DNA of 64,000 nt from Aureibaculum sp. 2308TA14-22. Its GTDB lineage: Bacteria; Bacteroidota; Bacteroidia; Flavobacteriales; Flavobacteriaceae. Below, piece after piece: positions 4,069-46,434 of this stretch (its first letter is position 1; every line of letters begins with the position of its first letter). The stretch is from NCBI RefSeq assembly GCF_040538665.1, contig NZ_JBEWXT010000001.1, positions 2,444,501-2,508,500 on the forward strand, in the 5' to 3' direction. Both the position numbers and the translations under genes were made by a program. The notes under the pieces are model-generated. The model ran no database searches, was not told the origin of the DNA, and was given only the letters and a program-made list of their open reading frames with translations.

Positions 4069-4404
4069 GTATTTATTTTTTACAAACATATTGATTACTA
4101 CAATCAATTAAACCCCTGTTTTAAGGGGGAAATTATTAATATGTTCTTTTAGAGCTATTTAGTCGGTTAAAAACTAATTTTTATAGTGTAATGCAATAAG
4201 GCATTATTAATAATACAACAACTGAAAGAGGTTAAATCCTAATAAAGCATAAATATATTTATTAAGCTGAAGATGGCAAATTCAAAATGAGTAAAATGTA
4301 CCAATCAGTTAGTTAACGGTATTTTTTCAAAAATCTTTTTGATTTACACTTTTTAAGCGGAAATTTAACGAATAATTGTATTTTTGTAAGCCAATTTGTC
4401 ATCA
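4069..4404. other. divergent intergenic region
   Basis: About 336 bases between the divergent TraB-like gene and hemH. It contains a small hairpin (CCCCT at 4113-4117 against AGGGG at 4124-4128) and the hemH promoter box near its right end. No coding sequence or RNA gene was recognised in it. Confidence 0.6.
4379..4386 (+). promoter_or_regulatory. hemH -7 promoter box
   Basis: TATTTTTG matches the Bacteroidota -7 consensus TAnnTTTG and ends 18 bases before the hemH ATG. No convincing -33 TTG was found at the usual spacing, so this is a probable rather than certain promoter. Confidence 0.5.
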
Positions 4405-5436
4405 ATGAAGAAAGGAATTTTATTAGTCAATCTTGGCTCTCCAGATAGTACCAAAGTAAAGGATGTTAGAAAATATTTGGATGAATTTTTAATGGACGAA
4501 CGTGTTATTGACATTCCACGATGGAAAAGATACTTACTGATAAAAGGTATTATTTTAAATACGCGACCAAAAAAATCTGCCAAGGCCTATAAAAAAATTT
4601 GGTGGAAAGAAGGATCGCCCTTGGTGGTAATTTCAGAGCGTTTTGCTAAAAAAGTGGCCGAAAAACTCGATGTTCCGGTTGTTTTGGGAATGCGATACGG
4701 TTCTATGAGCATTGAAAAGGGTATTGCCGAACTAGAGCGTAAAGGTATTCAAGAAATTTTATTAGTACCGTTATACCCTCATTATGCTATGTCTTCATTT
4801 GAAACTGTAGTAGAAAAGGCTAAGGAAATCAATAGAAAAAACTATCCCACCATAAAAATGGATGTGCTACCTGCGTTTTACAATCATCCTAATTATATTG
4901 AAGTAATGAGCAGCAATCTGAAACAACATTTATCAGATTTCGATTACGACCATATTTTGTTTTCCTATCACGGTATTCCCGAAAGGCATATTTACAAATC
5001 AGATACTACAAATTCGCATTGTAAAATAGATGACTCTTGCTGTAATACAGGCTCAAAAGCACATAGAACCTGTTATAGACATCAATGTTTTGAAACCACA
5101 AAAGGTATTGTAAAAACTTTGGGGCTCAAAGAAGGAACGTACAGCGATTCTTTCCAGTCACGATTATTAAAAGACCCATGGCTAAAGCCTTACACCGATT
5201 TTGAATTGGAACGTTTGGCTAAAGAAGGCATTAAAAATCTCGCAGTAATTACACCTGCTTTTGTAGCGGACTGCCTAGAAACGCTAGAAGAAATTGCTAT
5301 GGAAGGCGAACATCAGTTTAAAAGTGCTGGAGGTGAAAAATACAAACACATACCCTGTCTAAACGATAATGACGATTGGGTTGATGTAATGGTAAATTGG
5401 GTTAATGAATGGGTTGGTGAGCCGGTTACACTTTGA
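4405..5436 (+). CDS. hemH: ferrochelatase
   Basis: Inserts ferrous iron into protoporphyrin (or a porphyrin relative) in the last steps of haem synthesis. The N-terminus KKGILLVNLGSPDS is the ferrochelatase signature. The active-site histidine is in YHGIPERHI near residue 188, and the acidic partner is in the segment FVADCLETLEEI. The ATG at 4405 is preferred over the TTG at 4396 because it gives the usual family N-terminus. Length, 343 residues, is normal. A cysteine-rich stretch near residues 206-229 (C-x6-CC-x9-C-x4-C) could bind a metal or Fe-S cluster, as some bacterial ferrochelatases do; that is inference. hemJ lies downstream, separated by an inserted four-helix-bundle unit. Confidence 0.96.
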   Translation: MKKGILLVNLGSPDSTKVKDVRKYLDEFLMDERVIDIPRWKRYLLIKGIILNTRPKKSAKAYKKIWWKEGSPLVVISERFAKKVAEKLDVPVVLGMRYGSMSIEKGIAELERKGIQEILLVPLYPHYAMSSFETVVEKAKEINRKNYPTIKMDVLPAFYNHPNYIEVMSSNLKQHLSDFDYDHILFSYHGIPERHIYKSDTTNSHCKIDDSCCNTGSKAHRTCYRHQCFETTKGIVKTLGLKEGTYSDSFQSRLLKDPWLKPYTDFELERLAKEGIKNLAVITPAFVADCLETLEEIAMEGEHQFKSAGGEKYKHIPCLNDNDDWVDVMVNWVNEWVGEPVTL

Positions 5437-5442
5437 CTGGAG

Positions 5443-5894
5443 ATTAACGAATAACGAGTGTTGATTGATGAATTTTTCAACAATTTAAGAATTAATTACT
5501 TATGAAAACAAGCGATTTAGAAAATAGAGTTATTAATTTTTCGGTTCTTATTATTAACATTTGTGACAATCTTAAAACCAGTTATGCGTCTAATTATTAT
5601 GGAAATCAACTGATTAGATCTTCTGGAGCATCTGCTCTAAATTACGGCGAAGCAAGGAGTGCCGAATCACCAAAAGATTTTGTTCATAAAATGGGAATTT
5701 GTTTAAAAGAACTAAGAGAGAGTTATAATTGTTTACGCATTATAGATAAAGCCAACCTTTATAAAGGGAATCAAAATAAAATGGAAGAAGTGTTGGATGA
5801 AAACAACCAATTGATTTCAATTTTTGTTACAAGCATAAAGACATCAAAAAACAATAATTCAAAAGTCAAAAATCGTTAATCGTTGTTCGTTAAT
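5443..5894. mobile_element. IVS-like module: four-helix-bundle gene between inverted repeats
   Basis: 24-base arms at 5443-5466 and 5871-5894 are inverted copies that agree at 19 of 24 positions. Both share ATTAACGAA, AACGA and GATT when oriented alike. The unit lies exactly between hemH (stop 7 bases before the left arm) and hemJ (start 14 bases after the right arm). It contains one complete gene, whose stop codon lies inside the right arm. This is the architecture of intervening sequences in bacterial 23S rRNA (ORF within a stem), found here in a protein operon. Mobility is inferred, not shown. Confidence 0.5.
5502..5879 (+). CDS. four-helix-bundle protein (23S rRNA IVS-encoded type)
   Basis: 125 residues, predicted all-helical, with the family hallmarks NQLIRSSGASALNYGEA followed by KMGICLKELRES and a final polar helix. 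The family (TIGR02436, S23 ribosomal-like) forms a pentameric four-helix bundle with a basic groove and was first seen in intervening sequences of 23S rRNA genes. Its molecular role is not established; nucleic-acid binding has been suggested. Here it stands between hemH and hemJ, inside inverted repeats, and its TAA at 5877-5879 is part of the right repeat. It is likely co-transcribed with the haem genes but unrelated to haem synthesis. Confidence 0.9.
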   Translation: MKTSDLENRVINFSVLIINICDNLKTSYASNYYGNQLIRSSGASALNYGEARSAESPKDFVHKMGICLKELRESYNCLRIIDKANLYKGNQNKMEEVLDENNQLISIFVTSIKTSKNNNSKVKNR

Positions 5895-5908
5895 CAAATT
5901 TTTAAAAA

Positions 5909-6460
5909 GTGAACTACCTCTACCTCAAATCATTACACATTATTTTTATAACCACATGGTTTGCAGGGCTGTTTTATATTATTAGATTATTTATTTACTA
6001 CAAAGAAGCCGAAGATAAGCCTGAATTGGAACAGGGCATACTGCAAAAACAGTATAAACTGATGATAAAAAGGCTGTGGTACATTATAACTTGGCCCTCA
6101 GCAATCCTTACATTTATTTTTGCCTCTTGGTTACTTTACAATCAACCTATTTGGCTATCAACCACATGGATGTGGATTAAATTAGGTTTTGTATTATTGT
6201 TATATCTTTATCATTTTTCCTGCCAGCATATGGTCAATCAAGTTGAAAAAGGACATTTAAAATATTCAGCTTTTGGATTACGAATCTGGAACGAAGTGGC
6301 TACCATTCTACTTTTTGCTATCGTATTTTTAGTAGTGTTAAAAAATTCTTTGAGCTGGGTTTTTGGTACGTTAGGTATAATTGGCGTTTCTGTTTTATTA
6401 ATGTTGGGAATTAAACTCTATAAAAGAATTAGAGATAAGAAAAATTGGGATAAAGAATAA
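5909..6460 (+). CDS. hemJ: HemJ-type protoporphyrinogen IX oxidase (CopD-like membrane protein)
   Basis: 183 residues with about four to five transmembrane helices (residues ~8-28, 56-77, 85-105, 128-145, 148-166). The N-terminus MNYLYLKSLHIIFITTWFAG carries the conserved HemJ histidine at position 10, and LYLYHFSCQHM follows. HemJ oxidises protoporphyrinogen IX to protoporphyrin IX in the cytoplasmic membrane, the step before ferrochelatase, which fits the nearby hemH. The start is a GTG at 5909, and no in-frame ATG gives the family N-terminus. It lies 14 bases after the right arm of the IVS-like unit, so its translation signals may lie partly in inserted DNA. Confidence 0.88.
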   Translation: MNYLYLKSLHIIFITTWFAGLFYIIRLFIYYKEAEDKPELEQGILQKQYKLMIKRLWYIITWPSAILTFIFASWLLYNQPIWLSTTWMWIKLGFVLLLYLYHFSCQHMVNQVEKGHLKYSAFGLRIWNEVATILLFAIVFLVVLKNSLSWVFGTLGIIGVSVLLMLGIKLYKRIRDKKNWDKE

Positions 6461-46059: not shown

Positions 46060-46434
46060 TTATTTAGTTGCTTTCTTTTTATTGGCAACAGTTTTTCTCT
46101 TACCTTTTCTCGTTCTAGAATTATTCTTAGTTCTTTGACCTCTTAACGGCAAACCAGATCTATGACGAATACCTCTATAACATCCAATATCCATTAAACG
46201 TTTAATGTTCAATTGAGTTTCAGAACGCAATTCACCTTCAATAGTATAAGTACCTACTTGCTCTCTAATTTTACTGATTTCATCATCAGTCCAATCTTGA
46301 ACTTTAGTACTTTCATCTACTTTTGCATTTGCTAATATTTCTTTAGCTCTATTTCTTCCAACACCATAAATGTAAGTTAATGAAATAACTCCTCTTTTGT
46401 TTTTTGGTATGTCAATACCTGCTATTCTTGCCAT
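46060..46434 (-). CDS. rpsM: ribosomal protein uS13
   Basis: 124 residues. [20 protein letters not shown] and the conserved [20 protein letters not shown] are visible, with a basic tail ([17 protein letters not shown]). It sits in the 30S head and contacts L5 and the P-site tRNA. Only 2 bases separate it from the preceding rpmJ gene. Confidence 0.97.

Follow-up and report, generated by a model that had tools for sequence, protein, structure and literature searches.

A probable IVS-type mobile unit: a four-helix-bundle gene between inverted heptamer arrays, inserted into protein operons in the sense direction

The four-helix-bundle (S23p) family has so far been known mainly from inserts in rRNA genes, and the solved relatives of the protein described here are homopentamers. 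The intervening sequence (IVS) in the 23S rRNA gene of Coxiella has 28-bp terminal inverted repeats and an S23p open reading frame, and is cut by RNase III within the stem (PMC4990558). It also carries tandem GACAGAT heptamers, whose copy number varies between strains (PMC4990558). A homologous four-helix-bundle fold is found in Avd of diversity-generating retroelements, which the family includes or resembles (PMC10053308). Heptamer repeats are over-represented in bacterial genomes and have been little studied; the Xanthomonas repeat GGGAATC often occurs as inverted pairs (PMC4692102), and TAACTGA repeats are present in Beggiatoaceae, cyanobacteria and Bacteroidetes (PMC4679880). In the open-access literature, searched mainly at the level of titles and abstracts, no report was found that places four-helix-bundle genes flanked by heptamer arms inside operons of protein genes.

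Here, we describe such a gene in a haem operon. Positions 5442-5895 of the window (the whole 64-kb stretch of DNA that was analysed) form one unit, made of a left arm, a four-helix-bundle reading frame and an inverted right arm, inserted between hemH and hemJ:

4396-5436, plus strand: hemH (ferrochelatase), upstream host gene; TIGR00109 at 269.7 bits (cut-off 124.6), PF00762 at E 1.5e-102
5442-5476, plus strand: left arm, a degenerate heptamer array (ATTAACG AATAACG A...); inverted repeat of 35 nt at 77%, lag-7 identity 17/27
5502-5879, plus strand: four-helix-bundle gene (S23p / 23S rRNA IVS protein family), 125 aa; TIGR02436 at 6e-19, PF05635 at 2e-9
5861-5895, plus strand: right arm, an inverted heptamer array (ATCGTTA ATCGTTG TTCGTTA ATC); inverted repeat, lag-7 identity 25/35 over 5854-5895
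5909-6460, plus strand: hemJ (protoporphyrinogen oxidase, UPF0093), downstream host gene; PF03653 at E 1.3e-37, TIGR00701 at 116.7 bits

Profile matches to TIGR02436, PF05635, TIGR00109 and PF03653 bear out the original prediction of a four-helix-bundle gene between hemH and hemJ. The 125-aa protein meets the cut-offs of both family profiles (68.2 against 24 bits for TIGR02436; 37.8 against 33.8 bits for PF05635), and in the PDB the family profile has just two matches, 2gsc (Xanthomonas XCC0516) and 2rld. For hemJ, which starts with GTG at 5909, the TIGR00701 score falls below that profile's cut-off of 138 bits. The left arm begins 5 nt from the hemH stop (5436), and the right arm overlaps the 3′ end of the four-helix-bundle frame, including its stop codon at 5877-5879. 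Between the arms no other frame reaches 60 aa; this one matches no Pfam or NCBIfam family but its own, and no transposase or recombinase was found in the element. Elsewhere in the host genome, a 197-aa frame has a weak TIGR02436 match below the cut-off (E 0.015; L005, 1501-1707).

The arms had been described as 24-base inverted repeats with 19 of 24 positions matching and the stop codon inside one of them, and this is exactly what they are (5443-5466 and 5871-5894). Pairing extends to 35 nt at 77% (5442-5476 with 5861-5895), a weaker extension reaches 46 nt at 72%, and none of 5000 random pairs with the same geometry in the window scored as high as the arms. Joined by a short linker, these inverted repeats are able to form a stem (z = -7.1), and the fold of the whole 477-nt element is weak (z = -1.6). 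What the prediction lacked is that the arms are degenerate heptamer arrays with no single fixed sequence. The left arm opens with ATTAACG AATAACG, and the right arm, reverse-complemented, reads ATTAACG AACAACG ATTAACG ATTTTTG. A lag-7 scan of all 64 kb picked out only two stretches, the right arm and one at 46179, which lies within a coding sequence read as rpsM and was set aside. The exact arm was likewise rejected as a genome-wide repeat, since ATTAACGAAnAACGA brackets only the hemH-hemJ copy in the host genome. Short GC-rich palindromes similar to those of the REP type also occur inside or beside arms, such as CCTGCACGCCGGCAGGCGGG in the left arm of L097 and CTTCGCCATTGGCGAGGCAGG before hemJ in L042.

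Congeners preserve empty, filled and remnant versions of the same site. The hemH-hemJ junction is empty, with a gap of 1-2 nt, in three of them (G011, G012 and G008); the unit is present in G000 (the host), G001 and G002; and G003 has no four-helix-bundle match, yet keeps an arm remnant. An empty site in relatives was what the original prediction called for, and the gene does not stand at the same place in all of them. Loss instead of gain at this site was rejected, the gaps of the relatives being 1-2 nt, whereas G003 retains its remnant. The other good copy in the host (L003, 1405-1910; G000:C1 near 3503900) lies between the ATPase and permease genes of a Mn/Zn ABC transporter, and its inverted arms are built from a different heptamer, TTAGNNN. 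This tro/mnt site is empty in G015 and G016, where the ATPase stop overlaps the permease start (TAATG); with the unit in place in G000, the permease ATG reads ATA.

Within the genus, the subfamily of the hem copy occupies three sites: hemH-hemJ, a position downstream of a gene for a 142-aa membrane protein (in L097 and L100) and one adjoining a deacetylase gene (L104). When the hem copy is aligned with a copy from another site (L002 with L097), strong similarity starts at the left arm and falls away outside the arms. Some copies survive only as remnants, reduced to arms or deleted internally, and L100 and L104 also carry tandem copies in one or other of these states. Several other loci deserve mention. 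An arm-only array of about five ATCGTTA heptamers, without a four-helix-bundle gene, sits in a ribosomal protein operon between rplF-like and rplR-like genes (L177, 1450-1570; G009:C186). In three congeners (L169, L171 and L187), a single right-arm-like stretch, TCAAAAATCGTTAATnATT, stands by the apparent start of ruvB and is perhaps an old remnant. In L112 a further haem-pathway insertion separates a hemD-like from a hemE-like gene, and L144 has the same site.

The sharpest junctions come from cyanobacterial plasmids. Three related copies with 78-82% DNA identity stand at unrelated operon sites, and their homology spans arm to arm. At plasmid site 1, the empty sequence is GTAATTAACAAATAAAT-ATG, flank identity is about 98%, and in the filled copies GTAAT stands on either side of the unit, a clean 5-bp duplication. 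Site 2 has a gap of 3 nt when empty and contains the unit when filled; no exact duplication is present, and an approximate TTCTA recurs only if one base is ignored. Site 3, on a sister plasmid at the next junction of the site-2 operon, is occupied by another element, whose heptamers are different. At sites 4 and 5, where flank identity is about 92-93%, the unit went in ahead of the upstream gene's stop codon, by a few to 14 codons, and the arm replaces the end of that gene. On this ground stop codons were rejected as a strict target, and gene ends are read as the places where copies survive. Target duplication is thus clean at one of five plasmid sites, with none clear at sites 3-5. Within the inserted DNA the arms are terminal or nearly so.

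How general this build is was surveyed with 112 full family copies and their flanks, from 17 congeners and 119 genomes. Arms were scored by local alignment of the upstream flank with the reverse-complemented downstream flank, with a threshold of 28 that was our own choice; 168 genes from the same loci, and arms swapped between copies, served as controls. The median arm score was 26 for family copies against 16 for control genes, and 43% of copies reached 28, compared with 1.8% of controls and 2.4% of swapped arms. At this threshold strong arms are absent from over half of the family copies, through decay or divergence. The first copies taken were the best-scoring ones, so these proportions may fail for weak family members, and copies from related genomes or shared sites do not count as independent. 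At lag 7, identity reaches 0.42 in the upstream and 0.44 in the downstream flank, other lags giving about 0.30 apart from extra peaks at 14 and 21; the flanks of control genes have a weak lag-7 bump of their own (0.33 and 0.35 against about 0.30). Upstream arms are G-rich and downstream arms C-rich. A loose heptamer consensus, TAGTRRT, has a mean log-likelihood of 2.39, compared with 1.99 after shuffling (sd 0.11, 20 shuffles).

A second set of 80 named loci from GTDB extends the build beyond Bacteroidota, where 70% of 30 loci reach 28. These include Clostridia, Deltaproteobacteria, Acidobacteria, Planctomycetes, Gemmatimonadetes and CPR (about a dozen other phyla), and in one locus, L235, the arms match at 31 of 31 positions. 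The expectation that arms would accompany other copies of the family holds in that inverted arms flank copies generally, but not in their sequence, which differs between subfamilies. Arm similarity among copies at different sites rises with protein identity: at 70% protein identity or more, 65% of non-orthologous pairs have downstream arms in common, and under 35% identity about 1% do. Many sites are common to several genera, among them fadB-fadA, sufA-like-sufB and moaE-moaC (gene names as read from sequence). Related copies were not enriched within genomes, and no recent copying inside one genome was seen. Across many bacterial phyla, units of this build have gone into many operon junctions, oriented in the sense direction. 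Neither finding that would have refuted the original prediction was made, as hem junctions without the unit exist and arms stand beside other copies. Its central proposal, that an IVS-type module can enter protein operons, is supported and proves much more general than was stated, cutting of the stem apart.

Orientation is strongly biased. Both neighbours lie on the copy's own strand for 103 of 109 copies, compared with 64 of 104 controls, and both are opposed for one of 109 copies against 10 of 104 controls; the neighbour calls behind these counts are mechanical and based on reading frames. Sense orientation also holds in the wider set, for 49 of 50 copies in Bacteroidota and 21 of 27 elsewhere. 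As judged from substitution rates, the four-helix-bundle protein is under purifying selection, with a dN/dS of about 0.1. The hem-site gene gives 0.07-0.12 against relatives at the same site and at another, and diverged pairs, at shared sites and between sites, give 0.07-0.16; near-identical pairs are uninformative. No terminator-like site was found in 5300-6000, and promoter-like sites in the hem region are no more frequent than in shuffles. From these two results for the unit, we infer transcription from the promoter of the host operon.

We think it probable that these observations are best explained as a whole by a mobile unit with a protein that recognises the paired arms, an enzyme acting in trans, and survival of sense copies at gene ends. 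The unit would be transcribed from the promoter of the operon it enters. Its four-helix-bundle protein would recognise the paired heptamer arrays, whether as a DNA hairpin or cruciform or as an RNA stem, although no binding data exist, and might then bring the two ends together for the enzyme. Surviving copies would be sense-oriented ones located at gene ends, since there they could be expressed and would break little. No catalytic protein in the element or linked to it was identified. Besides this gap, several points count against the explanation: heptamers differ between subfamilies, unlike ordinary transposon ends; only one of five plasmid sites has a clean target duplication; related copies are not enriched within genomes; and strong arms are missing from over half of the family copies.

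The same parts could also work at the level of RNA, with arms pairing in the transcript, RNase III cutting the stem, and the excised RNA being mobile with or without a reverse transcriptase acting in trans. Insertion through RNA would account for the strong bias to sense orientation, the joined arms fold well (z -7.1), the 23S IVS of Coxiella is made of the same components (PMC4990558), and the family includes or resembles Avd, the accessory protein of diversity-generating retroelements (PMC10053308). Yet among arm mismatches in 108 elements, G-U/U-G pairs do not outnumber A-C/C-A pairs (67 against 91; p = 0.07 in the opposite direction). This wobble-bias test gave no support to selection for an RNA stem, and the arms may accordingly act as DNA ends. 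At shared sites the two arms of one element score 26.6 with each other and arms crossed between relatives 25.2 (p = 0.11), so any co-evolution is weak, and the fold of the whole element is weak as well (z -1.6). Dependence on a resident reverse transcriptase is unsupported, as 86 of the 119 genomes have no RVT_1, among them the host and genomes with 17 and 11 copies (G020 and G019). Together, the missing wobble bias, the weak co-evolution and the absence of RVT_1 weigh against the RNase III route and do not exclude it. We consider movement through RNA unlikely while keeping it in contention, and recognition of the arms as DNA somewhat more likely than recognition as RNA.

Two further accounts give mobility of the element no part or only an incidental one. 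In the first, the gene would belong to the host like any other and owe its distribution to homologous recombination and to horizontal transfer of whole operon segments, with arms that are merely local, slippage-prone repeats. The many sites common to several genera would fit, as would purifying selection in place and the strain differences in Coxiella heptamer number (PMC4990558), but this account has to contend with plasmid sites that are empty to within a few nucleotides at high flank identity, with homology between unrelated-site copies that begins and ends at the arms, and with one heptamer mirrored on both sides, swapped arms reaching 28 in only 2.4%. We find it improbable. Still harder to credit is that the arms are a regulatory device, an attenuator or mRNA stabiliser kept by the host, with mobility incidental. 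Their position at stop/start junctions and the sense orientation would suit such a role; the absence of a terminator-like site in 5300-6000 and the divergence of shared-site arms without clear co-variation do not, and unrelated operons are hit, some insertions even truncating the upstream gene (plasmid site 4).

The preferred reading, a mobile unit whose protein recognises its arms, can be taken further. There may be a pan-bacterial minimal mobile class, defined by a four-helix-bundle gene, inverted arrays of a subfamily-specific, TAGTRRT-like heptamer and sense insertion at operon gene ends, with no known transposase or reverse transcriptase, in which 23S IVSs are the rRNA-resident members and remnants make up part of the heptamer excess. 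We put this forward tentatively, the case for it falling somewhat short of persuading us. If true, a widespread gene family of unexplained function would be the cargo, and probably the DNA- or RNA-binding part, of a transposase-less mobile class. The puzzle of 23S rRNA IVSs would be tied to the evolution of operons (hemH-hemJ, fadB-fadA, sufC-sufD, moaE-moaC and others), and over-represented bacterial heptamer repeats would have a possible source. The empty and filled plasmid pairs offer a direct experimental system.

Among known systems, the 23S rRNA IVSs of Coxiella and Leptospira share with the hem unit an S23p frame inside terminal inverted repeats and an overall length of about 430-450 nt. 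The Coxiella IVS (in its 5′ region) and the hem unit also both have heptamers in the arm region, although this is not a formal criterion of an IVS. It is this combination of inverted repeats, S23p frame and heptamers in Coxiella that links 23S IVSs to the operon units. An IVS lies in a 23S rRNA gene, whereas the hem unit has hemH and hemJ as its neighbours; when the wider loci were scanned with five short motifs of 23S rRNA, none matched. Further, the heptamers of operon units vary between subfamilies, and excision by RNase III has not been shown for them. Diversity-generating retroelements differ in that no reverse transcriptase or template repeat adjoins the hem-site gene, and the host lacks RVT_1. 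MITEs and insertion sequences are likewise short units with terminal inverted repeats, empty sites and deletion derivatives, and a clear 5-bp duplication was seen at one of the five plasmid sites; unlike them, the units described here have no transposase, end in heptamer arrays that vary by subfamily, and are nearly always in sense orientation in operons. Finally, the heptamer simple repeats of Xanthomonas (GGGAATC), Nostoc (GGGGA(T/C)T) and Beggiatoaceae (TAACTGA) are intergenic arrays like the arms. The papers that describe such repeats (PMC4692102, PMC4679880) contain neither of the terms S23 and four helix, and a link between these repeats and four-helix-bundle units is suggested here without a test on those genomes.
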